DNA of 35,412 nucleotides from assembly GCA_903910795.1 (NCBI GenBank), contig CAIWAX010000302.1:1-35412 (forward strand), given 5' to 3'. This document shows positions 3,692 to 10,568 of this stretch, piece by piece. The notes under the pieces were generated by a model, which saw only the letters and a program-made list of their open reading frames with translations, searched no databases and was not told the DNA's origin. The stretch comes from an uncultured Anaerolineae bacterium (GTDB lineage: Bacteria; Chloroflexota; Anaerolineae; Anaerolineales; Villigracilaceae). Position 1 is the stretch's first letter; every line of letters starts with the position of its first letter. The translations under genes were made by a program, and so were the position numbers.

Positions 3692-4096
3692 ATGGGTCGC
3701 ACATTGATGTATATCGGAGCGGGGATTTTGTTCTTGTTAGGTATCGTCGTGGTGGGTTTTGGTGGAATAACCATGTACGGTTCGACAGCATTAACTGGTG
3801 ATCCTGCGTGGCTTTCGACTGGGATTGTTATAACCTGTGTCGGATTGTTTATGCTGGCAGGTGGGGCAGGTATGCTCTGGTTGGGCACACGCAAAGGCAG
3901 CGCCGGTGGAGCTGATGCGCAGCCGGTTGTGCTGAAAATTGACCTGCCGGGAGATACCAAGATCAGCCAGATGAAGTGCACTTCCTGCGGCGGGCCGATC
4001 ACCTCCAACGATATTAAAATGATGGCGGGCGCGCCGGTGGTTACCTGCCCGTACTGTCAGGCAACCTATCAACTAACCGAAGAACCCAAGTGGTAG
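3692..4096 (+). CDS. Two-helix membrane protein with C-terminal zinc ribbon
   Basis: A 134-residue protein with hydrophobic helices at about residues 5-27 and 42-65. A soluble tail follows, with CTSCGG near 97-102 and CPYC near 119-122, a CxxC/CxxC zinc-ribbon arrangement. The tail would face the cytoplasm if both ends are inside. The GGAGG ribosome site lies a few bases before the ATG. It is the first gene of a tight operon: the next gene starts 16 bases downstream and encodes the exported protein with the cysteine tail. I do not recognise a named family. Given its position it may be an accessory or chaperone for the membrane protein, but that is inference. Confidence 0.75.
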   Translation: MGRTLMYIGAGILFLLGIVVVGFGGITMYGSTALTGDPAWLSTGIVITCVGLFMLAGGAGMLWLGTRKGSAGGADAQPVVLKIDLPGDTKISQMKCTSCGGPITSNDIKMMAGAPVVTCPYCQATYQLTEEPKW

Positions 4097-4112
4097 TCCG
4101 GGGAGGCAGGTT

Positions 4113-5780
4113 ATGAAGTATCGAATTTTAGTATTGTTTCTGGCATTGGTATTCCTTTTTGGATTGACCAACGCGGCATCGGCGCAATCCAATTATTCTT
4201 TTCAACTGACCAATGAGGTAGTGCAAGTCTTTTTAAATAAAGATGGCACCATGGCGTTGGATTACCAGTTAACCTTTGTGAACGACCCCGGCGCGCATAT
4301 TCTTGATGCCGTTGACCTGGGGCTGCCAAATAATAATTATGACATGGGCAGCATTCGGGCGGATGTGGGCGGCAAAGCCGTTGATGTAACCAGTGATTAT
4401 CAGGGCAGCGGCAGCGGTGTGGCGCTGAACCTCGGCGGATATTCCATTTTCAATAAAGCCACCGTTCATGCCTATGTTGGCAGAATTTCCCGCATGTTTT
4501 ACCCGGATTCAAGCGATCAAAATTATGCCAGCAGCGAGTTCTCTCCAACCTATTTTGGCTCCCAATATGTGCACGGGAATACCAATCTGACAGTAGTTTT
4601 TCACCTGCCGCCGGGAGTGCAGCCGAATGAGCCCAAGTATCACCCCGCTCAGAATTGGCCGGGGGATAAAAATCCTGCAGGCGGGTTGGATTCTAATGGG
4701 CGGGTCACTTATACCTGGAACAGCCCCAATGCGAATGGAGCGACGCAATATACGTTTGGGGCTTCTTTCCCAAAACAATATATTCCTGCCTCTGCGATCG
4801 TAACCACTTCGATTTTCGATATTTTAGGTGGGATGATCAATTCTTTGATGGATTATCTGCCGTTTATTTGTTTCGCGGGTTTCTTCTTCGGGGTACCGAT
4901 CTTGAGCGCTTTCAGTAACCGCAAGCGCAAACTGGAATATATAACGCCGGGGATTTCCATCGAGGGGCACGGCATTAAGCGCGGCCTGACGGCCGTGGAA
5001 GCGGCCATTCTGATGGGCCAATCGCTGGATAAGGTGATGACGATGATCCTGTTTGGGGCTGTCAAAAAGGGCGCCCTGCAAGTTGTGACAAAGGATCCAT
5101 TAAAGGTTGAACTGCTCCAGCCGCAACCGGCAGATCTGCAAACCTACGAAACTGAATTTGTGCAGGCTATGGTTAAAGGGGATTCTGACCGTCGAAAAGA
5201 TTTGCAAACCATGTCGATTAACCTGGTAAAAAGCGTCAAGGAGAAAATGAAAGGTTTCAGCCGCAAAGAAACCCTGGATTATTACAAAGCTATCAACGAA
5301 AAAGCCTGGCAGCAAATTAACGCGGCTGGTACACCGGAAGTAAAAAGCGAGATGTTTGAACAGGCGCTGGAATGGACGATGCTGGACAAGGATTATGATG
5401 AACGCGCCCGGCGTACGTTTACCGGCCCGATTTTTATGCCCATGTGGTGGGGACGTTATGATCCGGTCTACCGCCAGCCTTCCATGCCGCAAACAACCTC
5501 GCTCGGGATGCCATCCACAACCTCCGCGCCATCGGGTTCAGGCGGACGGGTTTCTTTACCAGGTGCAGACCTGGCGGCTTCGATGGTGGGCGGCGTACAG
5601 AACTTTTCTGGCAAGGTGCTGGGCAATCTGAATGATTTCACAGGCAAAGTGACCAATGTCACCAATCCGGTGCCTGTTTCAACCAGTTCGGGCGGCAGCT
5701 ACCACGGTGGCGGCGGGGGCTGCGCCTGCGCCTGTGCTTGTGCGGGTTGTGCCTGTGCCTGTGCGGGCGGCGGGCGATAG
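4113..5780 (+). CDS. Exported membrane-anchored protein (DUF2207-like) with Cys-Ala repeat tail; putative radical SAM substrate
   Basis: A 555-residue protein. Residues 1-24 are a signal peptide ending in ASA. Residues 25-235 form a beta-rich extracytoplasmic domain resembling the DUF2207 type. One hydrophobic segment at about 247-267 is followed by NRKRK, which places the rest in the cytoplasm. Residues 285-440 are a charged helical region, and 450-530 a Ser/Gly/Thr-rich linker. The last residues hold five glycines, then seven cysteines alternating with alanine (537, 539, 541, 543, 546, 548, 550), and end AGGGR. This tail is unlike the body, which is poor in cysteine (one, in the membrane segment). 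The next genes encode a radical SAM/SPASM enzyme with a PqqD-like domain and a degenerate paralogue, so the tail is a natural candidate for modification. Metal or cluster binding without modification is the main alternative. The ribosome site is GGGGAGG. Confidence 0.8.
   Translation: MKYRILVLFLALVFLFGLTNAASAQSNYSFQLTNEVVQVFLNKDGTMALDYQLTFVNDPGAHILDAVDLGLPNNNYDMGSIRADVGGKAVDVTSDYQGSGSGVALNLGGYSIFNKATVHAYVGRISRMFYPDSSDQNYASSEFSPTYFGSQYVHGNTNLTVVFHLPPGVQPNEPKYHPAQNWPGDKNPAGGLDSNGRVTYTWNSPNANGATQYTFGASFPKQYIPASAIVTTSIFDILGGMINSLMDYLPFICFAGFFFGVPILSAFSNRKRKLEYITPGISIEGHGIKRGLTAVEAAILMGQSLDKVMTMILFGAVKKGALQVVTKDPLKVELLQPQPADLQTYETEFVQAMVKGDSDRRKDLQTMSINLVKSVKEKMKGFSRKETLDYYKAINEKAWQQINAAGTPEVKSEMFEQALEWTMLDKDYDERARRTFTGPIFMPMWWGRYDPVYRQPSMPQTTSLGMPSTTSAPSGSGGRVSLPGADLAASMVGGVQNFSGKVLGNLNDFTGKVTNVTNPVPVSTSSGGSYHGGGGGCACACACAGCACACAGGGR
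5721..5777 (+). other. Cys-Ala repeat tail, candidate modified region
   Basis: Codons 537-555 of the upstream protein read as four Cys-Ala pairs, a Gly, three Cys-Ala pairs, then GGGR. The cysteines use both TGC and TGT and the alanines use GCC, GCT and GCG, so the pattern is not a recent exact DNA expansion. The alternation appears to be kept at the protein level. The stop follows directly, so the tail is free and C-terminal like a precursor core peptide. Its modification is inferred from neighbouring genes only. Confidence 0.65.
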
Positions 5781-5804
5781 GTTATTTTTTGAATAAGGAG
5801 AGTT

Positions 5805-7172
5805 ATGCTTTCCACTCTTAATGGTGTGCAGCGTTGGTTGGTTTCCCGGAAAGGTGTTGCCTCACATAAAGCCGGCAGTGGAGCCGGGATGTTTCATTTT
5901 CGGATTGAGGATGATCAGGGTAAGAGCCGCGTACACCTACGAGTTGATCCGGATGGACATGGCACCTTGATGATCAACGCCAACCGGGTGGTGCATTTGA
6001 ATCCCACCGCCGCGTTGATGGCCCGCATGTTGCTCGAAAAAAAATCGGATGCCGATGTTGTTAAAGTCTTGCGCAGCCGCTATCATGTCAGCGCGGAGCA
6101 GGCGCGCGCTGATCTGCAAAGCATTCGCTTGCAGATCAATGAATTGATCCGCCCAGACGGCGCCTGCCCCATCCACGATCTGGAGCTGGAGACCACTGCG
6201 CCTTTCAGTACCCGGCCGTCAGCGCCTTACCGCATGGATCTGGCGCTAACTTATCGTTGTAACAATGCTTGCAGCCATTGTTACAACGCACGCGAGCGCA
6301 ATTTCCCGGAACTTTCCACAGCAGATTGGAAAAAGATACTGGATATTACCTGGTCGTTGGGAATCCCACATGTGGTTTTCACGGGCGGGGAACCGACCCT
6401 GCGAGAAGATTTACCTGAATTGATAGCGCATGCCGAGGGCAACGGCCAGATCACAGGGCTCAATACGAACGGGCGGAGGCTCAAAGATTCTGCCTATGTT
6501 CAGCGACTGACGGATGCAGGTCTGGATCATGTGCAAATCACGGTTGAGTCTCACGATGCGAAGATTCACGATGCCATGGTAAATGCCCGCGCTTTTGAGC
6601 AAACCATGGCCGGGGTCAAAAACGCCCTGACCAGCCCGCTGTTTGTCATGACCAACACAACCATGCTGCGAACGAATGTCGGCGAAATCCCCGCCACCCT
6701 CGATTATTTGGCTGATATTGGTGTGCCAACAATCGGGCTGAACGCCCTGATCCATTCCGGGCATGGCGCCAGTGTCGGCACTGGTTTGCCGGATAGCGAA
6801 CTGACCGGACTGCTGGCAACCGCGCGCCAGAAGACCGAAGCGCGCAGCCAGCGCCTGATCTGGTATACGCCCACACAGTACTGCGGTTTTGATCCACAGG
6901 CCCTGGATCTGGGGGTCAAAGGCTGCACCGCGGCTCTGTACAATATGTGTATTGAGCCGAATGGGGATGTGCTGCCTTGCCAGTCTTATTACAAGCCTGT
7001 GGGGAATATTTTGCGGGATGGATGGGATTCGATCTGGAATCACCCGCTTTCCACCCGCTTGCGGGAACGCCAGGGTTTGCCGGAGAAATGCGGCGGCTGT
7101 GAGCTGCTGGCCGAATGCGGGGGCGGCTGCCCGCTGCAATTTGAAAACCAGACTATTGACACCAATTTGTAG
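5805..7172 (+). CDS. Radical SAM/SPASM maturase with PqqD-like N-terminal domain
   Basis: A 455-residue enzyme. Residues about 42-118 form a PqqD-like winged helix (RiPP recognition element type; HLNPTAALMARML is typical). The radical SAM domain starts near 143, with the cluster motif C152-x3-C156-x2-C159 and the SAM-binding GGEPT at 194-198. The C-terminal SPASM region has C374, C382 and C392 (CIEPNGDVLPC) and C429-x2-C432-x5-C438-x3-C442. The last cysteine usual in SPASM domains is missing; the protein ends 13 residues later, and C360 or C382 could compensate. Two auxiliary 4Fe-4S clusters are expected. AAGGAG precedes the ATG, and the gene lies 24 bases after the Cys-tail protein, its likely substrate. 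The reaction (thioether formation, epimerisation or another) cannot be read from sequence. Confidence 0.9.
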   Translation: MLSTLNGVQRWLVSRKGVASHKAGSGAGMFHFRIEDDQGKSRVHLRVDPDGHGTLMINANRVVHLNPTAALMARMLLEKKSDADVVKVLRSRYHVSAEQARADLQSIRLQINELIRPDGACPIHDLELETTAPFSTRPSAPYRMDLALTYRCNNACSHCYNARERNFPELSTADWKKILDITWSLGIPHVVFTGGEPTLREDLPELIAHAEGNGQITGLNTNGRRLKDSAYVQRLTDAGLDHVQITVESHDAKIHDAMVNARAFEQTMAGVKNALTSPLFVMTNTTMLRTNVGEIPATLDYLADIGVPTIGLNALIHSGHGASVGTGLPDSELTGLLATARQKTEARSQRLIWYTPTQYCGFDPQALDLGVKGCTAALYNMCIEPNGDVLPCQSYYKPVGNILRDGWDSIWNHPLSTRLRERQGLPEKCGGCELLAECGGGCPLQFENQTIDTNL

Positions 7173-7199
7173 AAGAAAACCTGACTGGAGACGAATCTT

Positions 7200-7535
7200 A
7201 TGCATGAATGGATCAAAGAATTTCCGGCAGCAGTGACCGTTTGTGATCCAGATGGCATTATTCTTGAGATGAATGACAAAGCTGCTAAAACGTTTGAAAC
7301 GGACGGCGGCTATGGTTTGATCGGATTGAATATGCTGGATTGTCACCCCGAGCCTGCCCGCTCCAAAACAGAGCGCCTGCTGGCCGCCCGCCAAAAGAAT
7401 GTCTACACCATTGAAAAAAAAGGCGTCAAAAAAATGATTTACCAATCCCCCTGGTTTCAGGATGGAATATACGCCGGGTTTGTGGAGCTGTCACTCGAAA
7501 TTCCGTTTGAATTGGAGCATTTTATCAGGCGCTGA
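7200..7535 (+). CDS. Stand-alone PAS domain protein
   Basis: A 111-residue protein that is a single PAS domain. The opening FPAAVTVCDPDGIILEMND is a typical PAS first strand and loop. The segment LLDCHPEPARSK resembles the PAS domain found at the end of DUF438 proteins. The closing strands are FQDGIYAGFVELSLEIP. There is no kinase, cyclase or DNA-binding part. It sits 27 bases after the radical SAM gene and 33 bases before the degenerate paralogue, so it is part of the cassette. Cys15, Cys and His in the DCHPE motif could bind a metal or heme, but nothing proves this. It may sense redox state or oxygen and tune the maturase, or serve as a protein-protein module. Confidence 0.8.
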   Translation: MHEWIKEFPAAVTVCDPDGIILEMNDKAAKTFETDGGYGLIGLNMLDCHPEPARSKTERLLAARQKNVYTIEKKGVKKMIYQSPWFQDGIYAGFVELSLEIPFELEHFIRR

Positions 7536-7568
7536 CCCATTGTGGGCCGCATTCTGCGAGGAGGCGAT

Positions 7569-8723
7569 ATGAAAATTTTCGGTCGACTTACCGGGTTATT
7601 TACACCGGTCAAATCTTTACCAGAAGGCGTTTATCATTTCCAATCCGTGGCGGATGATAAAAAGCCATATCGGCTGCATTTACGTTTGCAGAAGGGCGGG
7701 GCGGGCATCCTGATCTTGAATGCATCCACTGTCCTGCAGCTCAACCCGACCGCTGCTGAATTTGCTTTCCATTATATCCAGGGCAGCAAACCTGAAAATG
7801 CTGCCAAAGCCATCGCCAGCCGCTACCGGATTAAAAAATCACTGGCGCTGCAGGATTACAACGAATTTGTTGAAAAAATCTCTGCCCTGGTTCATGGTCA
7901 GGATGTTGATCCTATTTCGATGCTGGGCTTTGAACAGGCGCAGCCCAATAGCTCAGAGCTGAGCGCACCGCTGCGCCTGGACTGCGCCCTGACCTACCGA
8001 TTGTCTCCGGGCAGCGATCCGATCGATGCACCCGAAAAGCGCGTGGATCGCGAATTGACCAGCGTGGAATGGCAAGCTATTCTGGATAAAGCTTGGGTCG
8101 CGGGTATCCCGCATGTCGTATTTACTGGCGGGGAGGCTACCCTGCGTGAAGATTTGCCGGAGTTGATCATACATGCCCAGGAAATCGGACAGGTGACCGG
8201 CTTGCTGACTGATGGAATAAAGCTGGCTGATAAGGGTTATCTGGAGCAACTCTTGCAAACTGGTCTGGATCACATGATGATCCTTGCGCCAGTAAATGGT
8301 GAGCCAGATTGGCCGGTCATCAAGAGTGTTATTCAGGCCGATATTTTCCTGACCGTTCATCTGACGGTAACCCAGCAAAATTCAGAGAGCCGGATGGCGC
8401 TGCTCGAGAAACTGGCAGCGGAAGGATTGGAGAATGTCTCCATCAGTATCTCCGATCCCGCGTTGCAGGAAGTAGGCGCCCGCCTGCACAGTCGTGCGGC
8501 GGAATTAAACCTGCGGCAGGTTTCGGATCTGCCTGTCCCGTATTCGGACGCGCATCCGGTGGCGCTTGAATCGGCAGAGGATGCCGAACCAGGCGGGGCA
8601 GGCAAAACATGGCTGTATGTGGAACCGGACGGAGATGTGCTGCCAGCCCAGGGTTTTGCTGACCAAATCCTGGGGAATATTTTGCGTGACAACTGGGAGA
8701 AGATTTACTCGCCTGGAAAGTAA
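7569..8723 (+). CDS. Cysteine-free radical SAM paralogue (pseudoenzyme) with PqqD-like domain
   Basis: A 384-residue paralogue of the upstream maturase. It keeps the PqqD-like domain (about residues 35-112, with QLNPTAAEFAFHY) and the radical SAM barrel, including the SAM-site motif FTGGEATLREDLPEL, almost identical to the partner. At the place of the CxxxCxxC motif it reads LTYRLSPGSDPIDAPEK, so the catalytic cluster cannot form. The SPASM region is cut short and its cysteines are replaced (YVEPDGDVLPAQGF for CIEPNGDVLPC). One cysteine (139) remains in the whole protein. The frame is intact, so this looks like a maintained non-catalytic partner and not decay. The start at 7569 is chosen for the GAGGAGG ribosome site; a GTG 27 bases earlier is less likely. 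A substrate-presenting or scaffold role is inference. Confidence 0.85.
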   Translation: MKIFGRLTGLFTPVKSLPEGVYHFQSVADDKKPYRLHLRLQKGGAGILILNASTVLQLNPTAAEFAFHYIQGSKPENAAKAIASRYRIKKSLALQDYNEFVEKISALVHGQDVDPISMLGFEQAQPNSSELSAPLRLDCALTYRLSPGSDPIDAPEKRVDRELTSVEWQAILDKAWVAGIPHVVFTGGEATLREDLPELIIHAQEIGQVTGLLTDGIKLADKGYLEQLLQTGLDHMMILAPVNGEPDWPVIKSVIQADIFLTVHLTVTQQNSESRMALLEKLAAEGLENVSISISDPALQEVGARLHSRAAELNLRQVSDLPVPYSDAHPVALESAEDAEPGGAGKTWLYVEPDGDVLPAQGFADQILGNILRDNWEKIYSPGK

Positions 8724-8771
8724 CAACCAGCTTTTGTGTGACGCTTCATGATGGATGGAACGTTCCAATTG

Positions 8772-8813
8772 CGCATAATCTCTGTTTATGCGTGGTCTTT
8801 CAGCGAGTATAAT
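8772..8813 (+). promoter_or_regulatory. Promoter with overlapping palindrome
   Basis: TATAAT at 8808-8813 is a perfect -10 box. TTTATG 17 bases upstream is a weak -35. The palindrome CGCATAA-N7-TTATGCG (8772-8792) covers the -35 region and could be an operator. The ATG of the next gene begins eight bases after the -10 box, so the transcript would be leaderless or nearly so. Confidence 0.5.
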
Positions 8814-8821
8814 TCAACATT

Positions 8822-9235
8822 ATGAAAGATAAATTGTCTTTTCGCACCTTTTTGTTCCCAACTATTCTGTTAATTTTGACCGGGTGGGGTGGGTTGGCCC
8901 TGCTCTTGAACTTCACCCTGCCCTATCTATGGCCGCGTTGGGGCATGTATGCCCTGATTGTGCTGGCCAGTACCGGCACTTTCCTGCCAATTTCTTATCT
9001 TTTTAACTCTATTTTTTCAAATCTCACGATTGCCCGGGCAGGCGTGATTGTGCGTGAGTCCGTGGCGGTTGGTGTTTATTTTGCGTTGATAACCTGGCTG
9101 GAGATTGGCCGGGTGCTCAATTTTCAAATCGCGGTCTGGCTTGGGCTGGGTTTGACCATTGTCGAGTATCTACTGCGCCTGTACGAAAGCTCAAATCATT
9201 CCGAAAATGTCCCTCCGCAATCTGCCGTCCGTTGA
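8822..9235 (+). CDS. Small integral membrane protein
   Basis: A 137-residue protein with about four hydrophobic helices (roughly residues 9-31, 40-63, 78-97 and 99-119) and a short polar tail. No family is recognised with certainty. There is no ribosome site upstream; a perfect -10 box eight bases before the ATG suggests leaderless translation. Its last 29 bases overlap the start of selA, so the two genes are probably co-transcribed and translationally coupled. No functional link to selenium metabolism is evident. Confidence 0.7.
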   Translation: MKDKLSFRTFLFPTILLILTGWGGLALLLNFTLPYLWPRWGMYALIVLASTGTFLPISYLFNSIFSNLTIARAGVIVRESVAVGVYFALITWLEIGRVLNFQIAVWLGLGLTIVEYLLRLYESSNHSENVPPQSAVR

Positions 9236-10568
9236 CCGGCTGCTGCTGGCGGCCAGTTCTTTTATTTCCAGCTATGGCCGCCCTTTGACGTTGAAAGCTC
9301 TCCGGGCAACCCTGGATGAAATCCGTACCGAGATTACGGCTGGGCAGCGTGCAGAGACCGCTCAGGAAGACATCCTGCAGCGGGCCGAATCCCTCCTGAA
9401 AACATGGACCCAACCTACCCTGCTGCCGGTGTTAAATGCCACCGGTGTGATTCTGCATACCAACCTGGGCCGTGCGCCGCTCTCGCCATCTGCCATGCGG
9501 GCCATACAGGAAATCTCTGAGGGCTATTCCAATCTGGAGTTCGATCTGGTGACAGGCAAACGCGGCAGCCGTTTGACCCACGTCGAAACCGTGCTGCAGA
9601 ATCTGACCGGCGCTGAAGCGGGGCTGGTGGTGAATAACTGCGCCTCGGCGGTCTTGCTGGTGCTTACGGCGCTGGCTCGCAGGAAGTGGGTTATCATACC
9701 CCGCTCGCAATTGGTGGAAATTGGCGGCGGTTTTCGCATCCCGGAGGTTATGCAGCAGTCTGGGGCGCGGCTGGTAGAAATCGGTACCACCAACAAAGTG
9801 CGCCTGTCTGACTTTGAGGAAGCCCTCGCGGCTGTTCCAGAGGCATCCAGCGCAGTCGTGATGCGCGCGCACAGATCCAATTTTAAGATTGTTGGTTTTA
9901 CCGAAGAACCTGAATTGAAAGAGATTGCAGTCTGTGCCCACCAGCGCGGGGCTGTTTTTGTGGATGACCTGGGCTCAGGCGCTTTGCTTGATACGGCCCG
10001 CTATGGCATGGAGCATGAGCCCACTGTTCAGGAATCGCTGGCGGCGGGCGCAGACCTGGTCATGTTTTCTGGGGATAAATTATTGGGCGGACCGCAGGCC
10101 GGTATTATTATTGGAAGAGCTGATCTGATTGCGAAAATAAAACGTCATCCATTGGCGCGTGCTTTACGGGCTGACAAGGCCTGTCTGGCGGGTCTGTATG
10201 CCACATTGCTGCATTATCTGCTGGATGAGGCGGAAAGCCAGGTGCCGATCTGGCGCATGATCTCCTTGCCGTTGGAGGAAGTCAAGCTGCGGGCAGAAAA
10301 CTGGCAGCGCAGGCTTGGGTTTGGGGAGGTGGTCATGAGCGAATCCACTGTGGGCGGGGGCTCGCTTCCAGGCGAATCTTTCCCGACCTGGGTGCTTTCG
10401 GCGGCCGTTAAGTCCCCGGACAAGGCTCTGGCCAGGCTTCGGAAATCCAAACCGGCCTTGATTGCGCGCACTCAAAATGAGTGTTTGCTGTTTGACCCGC
10501 GCACTGTGCTGCCTGAACAGGATGATGTTTTGCTGGCCTGTCTGAAAGCCAACCTGCCGGCCAGTTGA
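9207..10568 (+). CDS. selA: L-seryl-tRNA(Sec) selenium transferase
   Basis: A 453-residue PLP enzyme that converts seryl-tRNA(Sec) to selenocysteyl-tRNA(Sec) with selenophosphate. The N-terminal helical domain (LPSVDRLLL) matches SelA, as do LPVLNATGVILHTNLGRAPLS near residue 73 and GGGFRIPEVM near 173. Lys291 in MFSGDKLLGGPQ corresponds to the PLP lysine (Lys295 in E. coli). The length fits the family (about 460). The usual VNNNAAAV segment reads VNNCASAV here. The start at 9207 is preferred because the conserved N-terminus begins there; an earlier GTG would lie deep in the upstream gene. selB, selC and selD are not in this window and no in-frame UGA selenoprotein was found, so use for selenocysteine is assumed from the family. 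Confidence 0.92.
   Translation: MSLRNLPSVDRLLLAASSFISSYGRPLTLKALRATLDEIRTEITAGQRAETAQEDILQRAESLLKTWTQPTLLPVLNATGVILHTNLGRAPLSPSAMRAIQEISEGYSNLEFDLVTGKRGSRLTHVETVLQNLTGAEAGLVVNNCASAVLLVLTALARRKWVIIPRSQLVEIGGGFRIPEVMQQSGARLVEIGTTNKVRLSDFEEALAAVPEASSAVVMRAHRSNFKIVGFTEEPELKEIAVCAHQRGAVFVDDLGSGALLDTARYGMEHEPTVQESLAAGADLVMFSGDKLLGGPQAGIIIGRADLIAKIKRHPLARALRADKACLAGLYATLLHYLLDEAESQVPIWRMISLPLEEVKLRAENWQRRLGFGEVVMSESTVGGGSLPGESFPTWVLSAAVKSPDKALARLRKSKPALIARTQNECLLFDPRTVLPEQDDVLLACLKANLPAS

Follow-up and report, generated by a model that had tools for sequence, protein, structure and literature searches.

A widespread cassette pairing a membrane protein with a C-terminal Cys-Ala tail and a radical SAM/SPASM enzyme in bacteria and Asgard archaea

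The window analyzed here is the whole 35,412-nucleotide (nt) contig CAIWAX010000302.1 of an uncultured Anaerolineae bacterium (C302 among the 496 contigs of a draft genome). Five plus-strand genes at positions 3692–8723 encode a small membrane protein (Z), a 555-residue membrane protein with a C-terminal tail of alternating cysteine and alanine (T), a radical S-adenosylmethionine (SAM)/SPASM enzyme with a PqqD-like domain (R), a putative PAS protein (S) and a pseudo-radical-SAM paralogue of R (P). The relatives of this cassette show an undescribed, widespread system, which was placed with the SPASM maturases, its putative substrate being unusual and its distribution broad. The best explanation overall, and a probable one, is that the cassette matures T, with R modifying the cytosolic tail of the intact membrane protein. 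Short peptides are the main setting in which radical SAM/SPASM maturases have been described; the cassette links such an enzyme, in Asgard archaea as well as bacteria, with the far C-terminal end of a large membrane protein.

Co-occurrence and linkage of the tail protein and the enzyme

A search with the T protein in 61 related genomes found T in 46 of them. R (E<=1.3e-100) was encoded by all 46 genomes with T and by none of the 15 without it, the best R-type match among the latter (genome G036, 1e-56) being P only. This genome (locus L095) keeps P only and is devoid of T, R and the methyltransferase orthologue described below.

In total, 160 tail loci were considered, which are partly dependent, as 151 different last-120 sequences were present among 159 of them and Hungatella was included twice. 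The initial annotation had named Cys-Ala tails occurring regularly without a radical SAM neighbour as an outcome that would speak against it; R was detected in the fetched DNA of 132 of the 160 loci, and genomes encoding R hold 157 of them. The genome search that it had suggested, for GGGR-ending Cys-Ala tails with an adjacent PqqD-radical SAM-SPASM gene, revealed such a gene within 1 kb in 120 loci. Of the 28 tail loci whose fetched DNA lacked R, L093 has the enzyme at another place in its genome (G057), R was found for 11 of another 12 (ten at E<1e-160 and Hungatella at 1e-67), and it was found for 13 of the 15 tested at E<=1e-60.

The tail class, defined as (CA)3 or (CA)4 before GGGR, was mapped on a tree of 131 R enzymes, 126 of which could be labelled (for L092, L232 and L233, the label came from a tail at another place in the genome). 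On this tree, the tail class changed 3 times versus 8.8 times for shuffled labels, and none of 500 shufflings gave a value as low.

Conservation and spread of the Cys-Ala tail

The tail of T carries, as first annotated, seven cysteines alternating with alanine, followed by GGGR and the stop codon. T-family open reading frames (ORFs) were taken from the window and from 52 loci fetched around T and R matches. Among the 48 complete ORFs identified by protein homology, 44 ended with GGGR and 42 had the strict tail core. The six non-strict ORFs comprised two with small changes (L057, L073), three tail-less paralogues (L072, L083, L092) and a broken-frame fragment (L077), for which the piece downstream of the frame break has the tail. 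The last ten residues were invariant in 15 T members showing 31–72% identity to the T of the window.

A degenerate DNA scan for the tail core CACAGCACACA gave at least 119 loci, all with the tail in frame and with 119 different 51-nt sequences. Among the 119 matches listed, which included Asgard archaea, GGGR was followed by a stop codon in 117; in L123 the contig ends directly after GGGR, and in Hungatella hathewayi GGGR is followed by AGCSQKDFY.... These matches were selected for the core, and the free observations there are the GGGR, the stop, the linker and the neighbours; the invariance of the core rests on the homology-found set, and the column entropies rest mostly on motif-selected loci. 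Across the 151 different sequences, the column entropy was about 3.1–3.7 bits at 35–60 residues before the end, dropped through a Gly/Ser-rich linker and was about 0.1 in 14 of the last 17 columns, with the other three reaching 0.7 because two tail classes exist. In contrast to the drifting linker ahead of it, the tail of T is almost constant. At each position of the tail the codon choice varies, and both codons of Cys and the four each of Ala and Gly are in use, which indicates that selection acts on the protein. In the window's genome, the pattern Cys-Ala-Cys-Ala-Cys plus GC occurred three times, all within this tail (reversed control, 0); this, together with the retention of the tail across phyla, argues that the tail is not a chance product.

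The loci carried 17 phylum labels, four of them Asgard, with Chloroflexota in the majority and the Aminicenantes loci unlabelled; organism names are those of the record titles, mostly of metagenome-assembled genomes (MAGs). The Asgard loci came from Hodarchaeota (two MAGs), Heimdallarchaeota, Sigynarchaeota and Lokiarchaeota (two). On the R tree, the six Asgard enzymes fell into two groups of three with starred support, which argues against contamination as one single event. The tail (CA)5-GGGR-AGCSRKDFY... occurs in a second genome of Hungatella's order, and in Hungatella and this genome the end of a divergent R gene overlaps a divergent Cys-Ala carrier gene by 1 and 8 nt; these versions lie at L231:5539-8063 and L250:3396-5793. 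The AGCSxKDFY... stretch after the tail is possibly a follower or a cleavage signal. The CACACAGGGR pattern was present in 1 of 199 genomes of Hungatella's phylum, Hungatella itself being the one.

Domains and structure of the R enzyme

The annotation of R as a radical SAM/SPASM enzyme with a PqqD-like domain was borne out by Pfam, where Radical_SAM, SPASM and PqqD all exceeded their cut-offs (PqqD, PF05402, 34.2 bits against 23.4). In the structure model of R (predicted local distance difference test score (pLDDT) 72.6, predicted template modelling score 0.78), residues 28–115 form strands and then helices, as in a recognition element (RRE) of ribosomally synthesized and post-translationally modified peptides (RiPPs). 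The best match of the model among solved structures was the sactisynthase SkfB, followed by SuiB and PqqE, and the sequence profile of R matched best PqqE and SkfB. Among NCBIfam equivalogs, the best 25 of 78 families matched were all under the cut-off, with PqqE at the top (133.7 bits versus 381.35).

The canonical SPASM cysteines comprise CX9-15GX4C, CX2CX5CX3C and a seventh Cys. Among 130 full-length R homologues, CxxxCxxC was present in all, CX9-15GX4C in 129 and CX2CX5CX3C in 127. One further enzyme relative was scanned and had radical SAM, SPASM and Fer4_12 over the cut-off. The (CA)4-clade enzymes of L079, L083, L084, L089 and L092 carry an extra C-terminal Gly/Cys-rich stretch, e.g., GGGCSGCSGSCGTGG.

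Architecture and topology of the T protein

No Pfam or NCBIfam match over the cut-off was found for T, with YfaZ and TIGR04222 as the notable weak ones, nor for four further tail carriers scanned. The model of T shows a confident beta ectodomain (approximately residues 30–225) followed by a single long transmembrane helix, helices on the cytosolic side and a disordered tail; due to the mean pLDDT of 64.7, only the ectodomain was used. The best Foldseek matches of the model were the ribophorin I/OST1 subunit and M1 aminopeptidases (E 7e-8 and weaker), and the best matches to the ectodomain in a viral structure library were also M1-aminopeptidase-like. The Foldseek matches were taken to reflect a shared beta domain; T is too short for an aminopeptidase domain. 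The ectodomain itself is conserved in the alignment of 15 members.

The hhalign comparison of the T family with eight DUF2207 proteins gave a probability of 99.1 over 455 columns, and of 97.1 over 300 columns with the signal peptide and tail trimmed, the E-values being optimistic because of few effective sequences and one template. The Pfam model of DUF2207 (PF09972) gave no match at E<=1 in 15 T members. Judged by profile comparison, T is a remote relative of DUF2207; the eight DUF2207 proteins have a Gly-rich C-terminus like T, but no Cys-Ala tail. The TIGR04222 cut-off was not reached by any of the 15 T members, four of which matched weakly (best E 0.0067). DUF2207-like proteins are of unknown function, and the cassette offers an entry point to them.

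Hydropathy analysis of 16 tail proteins revealed a signal peptide and one span followed by Lys/Arg in seven, including the T of the window, and such an arrangement places the tail on the cytoplasmic side. The cytoplasmic location proposed at the outset is therefore predicted for the window protein and six others, but eight of the 16 have additional hydrophobic segments, leaving their topology unsettled, and the Hungatella carrier has a single hydrophobic segment. The Heimdallarchaeota protein has as many Lys/Arg before the span as after it, and in the Sigyn- and Lokiarchaeota proteins the tail itself scores as hydrophobic. The architecture of T, with its signal peptide, ectodomain and span, agrees with the remark in the initial annotation that a 555-residue membrane protein is unlike short RiPP precursors, and an ordinary short RiPP was discarded on the same grounds. 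Short tail-less T-like paralogues (L072:4199-5038, L083:8323-9195 and L092:7102-8112) lie near the tail gene or the enzyme and may serve as adaptors.

A methyltransferase encoded outside the window

A class I methyltransferase (Methyltransf_11) was the commonest non-core neighbour, present in 75 loci by clustering and in 92 of 175 loci by a hidden Markov model search, and this association is new here. In 81 of the 85 loci with both genes it was encoded on the strand of T, and in 48 it lay within 100 nt of a core gene. Its orthologue (E<=8.9e-19) was present in 43 of the 46 genomes with T and in none of the 15 without T (best match there 2.8e-11). In the window's genome, the gene is located on contig C103 (3123–3917, minus strand). 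In the Loki- and Sigynarchaeota genomes, the methyltransferase adjoins R; the T gene is carried by a different contig and has no R gene within 2.5 kb. As longest ORFs, R and the methyltransferase occupy 7536–8939 and 8881–9798 of L233, both on the plus strand, and 8346–9716 and 7501–8289 of L232, both on the minus strand. The adjacency in these two Asgard genomes was read as a functional linkage to R. The methyltransferase appears to be a core part of the system lying outside the window, and it is likely to act in the pathway of T and R.

In several genomes of the window's genus or family, the methyltransferase is found in another conserved gene row (L235:1441-4934; L243:3898-7955), which in L243 consists of PilZ, a dual-specificity phosphatase, the methyltransferase, signal peptidase I and a DeoC-like aldolase.

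Proposed pathway and alternative explanations

The view that the tail of T is the target of the adjacent radical SAM enzyme, put forward in the initial annotation, is supported by linkage and co-occurrence. T is very probably the substrate of R; the modification itself we infer from the sequences. T would be made with a signal peptide and its beta-rich ectodomain exported, and the flexible C-terminus with the Cys-Ala tail would remain in the cytoplasm. There, R would bind T via its PqqD/RRE domain and act repeatedly on the (CA)n-G-(CA)n-GGGR tail by 5'-deoxyadenosyl-radical chemistry. The likeliest product would be a set of thioether links between Cys sulfur and alanine carbon (sactionine-like), a choice prompted by the seven Cys, by the small acceptor residue alternating with them and by the resemblance of the enzyme to SkfB, although we hold thioethers at slightly under an even chance. 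Epimerization or another oxidation may take place instead. P is probably a catalytically dead helper, holding or presenting the substrate, and the class I methyltransferase probably acts in the same pathway, perhaps adding a methyl group after R. The tail may be retained by T as a built-in module with a redox, metal-binding or structural task, its role being a matter of speculation. A tentative extension, which we regard as possible but doubtful, is an ancient protein-anchored prosthetic tail, with R and the methyltransferase making a multi-thioether module that is a protein-derived cofactor and not a natural product; if so, a single fixed sequence would serve the same conserved protein of the cell surface across many bacterial phyla and Asgard archaea. 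If the tail is modified, it would be a new protein-derived module of broad spread.

Several observations weigh against the maturation of T by R. R was not found for L159 (in the set of 12 loci described above) nor for L166 and L180 (in the set of 15), all three being MAG contigs shorter than 7 kb, and it was found only partially in G527, G538 and G540. A (CA)4-clade enzyme is accompanied by a (CA)3 tail in L083, L092, L113 and L124 (three genomes; the L083 and L113 enzymes are identical), and these four loci break a strict one-to-one match between tail class and enzyme clade, which was therefore rejected. R has six of the seven canonical SPASM cysteines; in the window it has no Cys after C442, and 14 of 14 sequences retain C360 and C382. 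The CX2CX5CX3C motif is still present in 10 of 94 P homologues, and T-like paralogues without a tail exist in three loci. The methyltransferase is near T in only 51 of the 79 tail loci with at least 4.5 kb downstream, is absent from seven same-genus loci and from the window, and is weak in three of the 46 T genomes (G033, with the match at a contig end, G041 and G054). Moreover, the fetched DNA around the loci showed no transporter or peptidase gene as a constant neighbour, and six to eight CxC cysteines would bind metals unmodified.

This last point leads to the explanation of the tail as a metallothionein-like metal or iron-sulfur segment with free thiols, R modifying something else, or T elsewhere. 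CxC repeats are typical of metal-binding proteins, and the zinc-ribbon neighbour Z accompanies the tail in 98 of the 110 loci tested. However, a metal site would tolerate changes of the spacer, whereas the spacer Ala and the terminal GGGR are kept in 42 of 48 ORFs, and both the near-obligate R and the presence of the methyltransferase would be left unexplained, so that we consider a metal segment distinctly improbable. T could also be a very large RiPP precursor, from which the modified tail is cleaved and set free as a small peptide. This reading would fit the structural similarity of R to RiPP maturases, the two Hungatella-order genomes in which AGCSxKDFY... follows GGGR as though GGGR were a cleavage point, and the signal peptidase I gene present downstream in 11 loci and beside the methyltransferase in L243. 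It is nevertheless unlikely: the conserved ectodomain is not needed for a leader, 117 of the 119 motif-found proteins among the matches listed stop at GGGR, and neither a peptidase nor an exporter was constant as a neighbour in the fetched DNA.

A different chemistry, the epimerization of alanines (or cysteines) to D-residues without cross-linking, is suggested by radical SAM epimerases, which act on the alpha carbon of RiPPs according to the accessible part of PMC8326336, and by EpeE, found among the solved matches of the R model from rank 34 down. Epimerization alone is quite unlikely, as the seven conserved Cys point to a reaction at sulfur and the best solved match of the model is a sactisynthase. 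A mere co-inheritance of T, R, P and the methyltransferase in Anaerolineae might be considered because methylmalonyl-CoA mutase, too, is often encoded upstream (31 loci), showing that some synteny is lineage-wide. It is very hard to reconcile with T–R pairs recurring in Asgard archaea, Armatimonadota, Fermentibacterota, Hungatella and others in differing orders, with the two gene orders Z-T-R-P and Z-R-P-T, and with the joint absence of T, R and the methyltransferase orthologue in 15 relatives, and we consider it highly improbable.

Comparison with described systems

The initial annotation regarded the cassette as undescribed, and a search of titles and abstract starts, with most subscription journals outside its range, revealed no paper describing the tail or the cassette. 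R resembles SkfB, SuiB, CteB and PqqE in the domain order RRE-radical SAM-SPASM/twitch and in the probable substrate gene beside its own gene; unlike in those systems, its putative substrate is the extreme C-terminus of a large membrane protein.

That thioether chemistry on a protein is possible is indicated by QhpD. According to the accessible part of PMC7876137, this radical SAM enzyme introduces three thioethers within the QhpC protein in the cytoplasm, and the operon encodes a second modifying enzyme. By the same partial description, QhpC is, unlike T, a small periplasm-bound subunit with a leader and Cys to Asp/Glu links, and the repeat tail on a membrane protein sets T apart from it. The closest systems in print, as far as the available portions of the sources go, are the TIGR04222/MNIO proteins and the Asp-Cys or TVGG repeat peptides. 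TIGR04222 membrane proteins have Cys-containing C-terminal tails and lie beside MNIO enzymes (PMC12452194, in the portion available); T shares with them the membrane location, the Gly/Ser/Cys tail and the adjacent gene for a RiPP-type enzyme. Going by that portion, the TIGR04222 tails are diverse and predicted to be periplasmic, whereas T has a radical SAM partner and a nearly fixed tail predicted to be cytoplasmic. Radical SAM peptides with repeated cores include TvgA with TVGG repeats and those with Asp-Cys repeats (PMC9062424, seen in part). R similarly lies beside a putative substrate with a short repeated motif, but the substrates described in the accessible text of that source are short peptides with other motifs, and Cys-Ala is not named there.

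Genes of the cassette and their surroundings

The five ORFs are all present where annotated (Table 1), and the gaps of 16–33 bases hold (16, 24, 27 and 33 nt), the last one with the start of P at the ATG at 7569 behind GGAGG; the ORF listing has a GTG start at 7542. The description as a cassette of five stood for the window, but the PAS gene and the pseudo-enzyme are not core. The commonest gene order was Z-T-R-(S)-P, and loci with (CA)4 tails had Z-R-P-T. The Z-T-R-P set is carried by the named strains Ornatilinea apprima, Bellilinea caldifistulae, Levilinea saccharolytica and Leptolinea sp. HRD-7, which makes the system testable.

Table 1. Features of the cassette in the window.
Feature	Position	Strand	Basis
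Z, small membrane protein with zinc-ribbon-like C-terminal CxxC...CxxC	3692..4096	+	ORF; homologue in 98/110 tail loci
T, 555-aa membrane protein, tail carrier, remote DUF2207 relative by profile	4113..5780	+	ORF, alignment, model, hydropathy, profile comparison
Predicted signal peptide of T, with invariant Ala24-Gln25 at its end	4113..4184	+	Family alignment, hydropathy
Predicted membrane span of T, residues 248–269, with four Lys/Arg in the 15 residues after it	4854..4919	+	Model, hydropathy
Cys-Ala tail CACACACAGCACACAGGGR plus stop	5721..5780	+	ORF, family alignment, motif scan
R, PqqD(RRE)-radical SAM-SPASM enzyme	5805..7172	+	ORF, Pfam, homologues, structure model
PqqD-like recognition domain of R, residues 55–106	5967..6122	+	Pfam PF05402
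Radical SAM cluster motif CxxxCxxC (CNNACSHC) of R	6258..6281	+	Kept in 130/130 full-length R homologues
SPASM domain of R, residues 374–433	6924..7103	+	Pfam PF13186
S, putative single PAS-domain protein, optional	7200..7535	+	Weak PAS matches; homologue in 27 loci
P, pseudo-radical-SAM paralogue of R, radical SAM cluster cysteines lost	7569..8723	+	Pfam; CxxxCxxC in 0/94 full-length homologues

A homologue of Z (blastp E<1e-4) was found in 98 of the 110 tail loci with at least 900 nt upstream. Its reading as a zinc-ribbon membrane protein fits the two CxxC pairs, but no Pfam zinc-ribbon model exceeded the cut-off. The lone PAS protein retained a PAS match, albeit a weak one below the cut-off (best E 0.0013). 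S homologues were confined to 27 loci, all Chloroflexota-labelled or kin of the window (one, unlabelled, is the window itself), and S was therefore rejected as a core part.

P had been called a cysteine-free paralogue; it is a pseudo-radical-SAM protein without CxxxCxxC, but one Cys is present. Radical SAM was the sole Pfam domain of P over its cut-off (31.6 versus 29.5 bits), the PqqD match (19.5 versus 23.4 bits) being below. As 39 loci with both T and R showed no P (some of them cut short, and Asgard, Fermentibacterota and Acidobacteriota loci among them), P was rejected as a core part; the pseudo-enzyme is common, not universal.

Promoter and terminator scans gave no signal above the shuffled level, and tRNA-Asp was the only tRNA found in the window. 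PADLOC gave no match for T and only viperin-type radical SAM similarity for R and P, and a defence-system reading was dropped on this account; viral carriers were likewise dismissed, with 0 matches of the tail pattern in viral contigs. Downstream of the cassette lies selA, encoding selenocysteine synthase (9207–10565), with no link to the cassette seen. A conserved 337-residue protein without a Pfam match over the cut-off (L150:6781-7794 and 14 other loci) was encoded within the cassette span in 13 loci.

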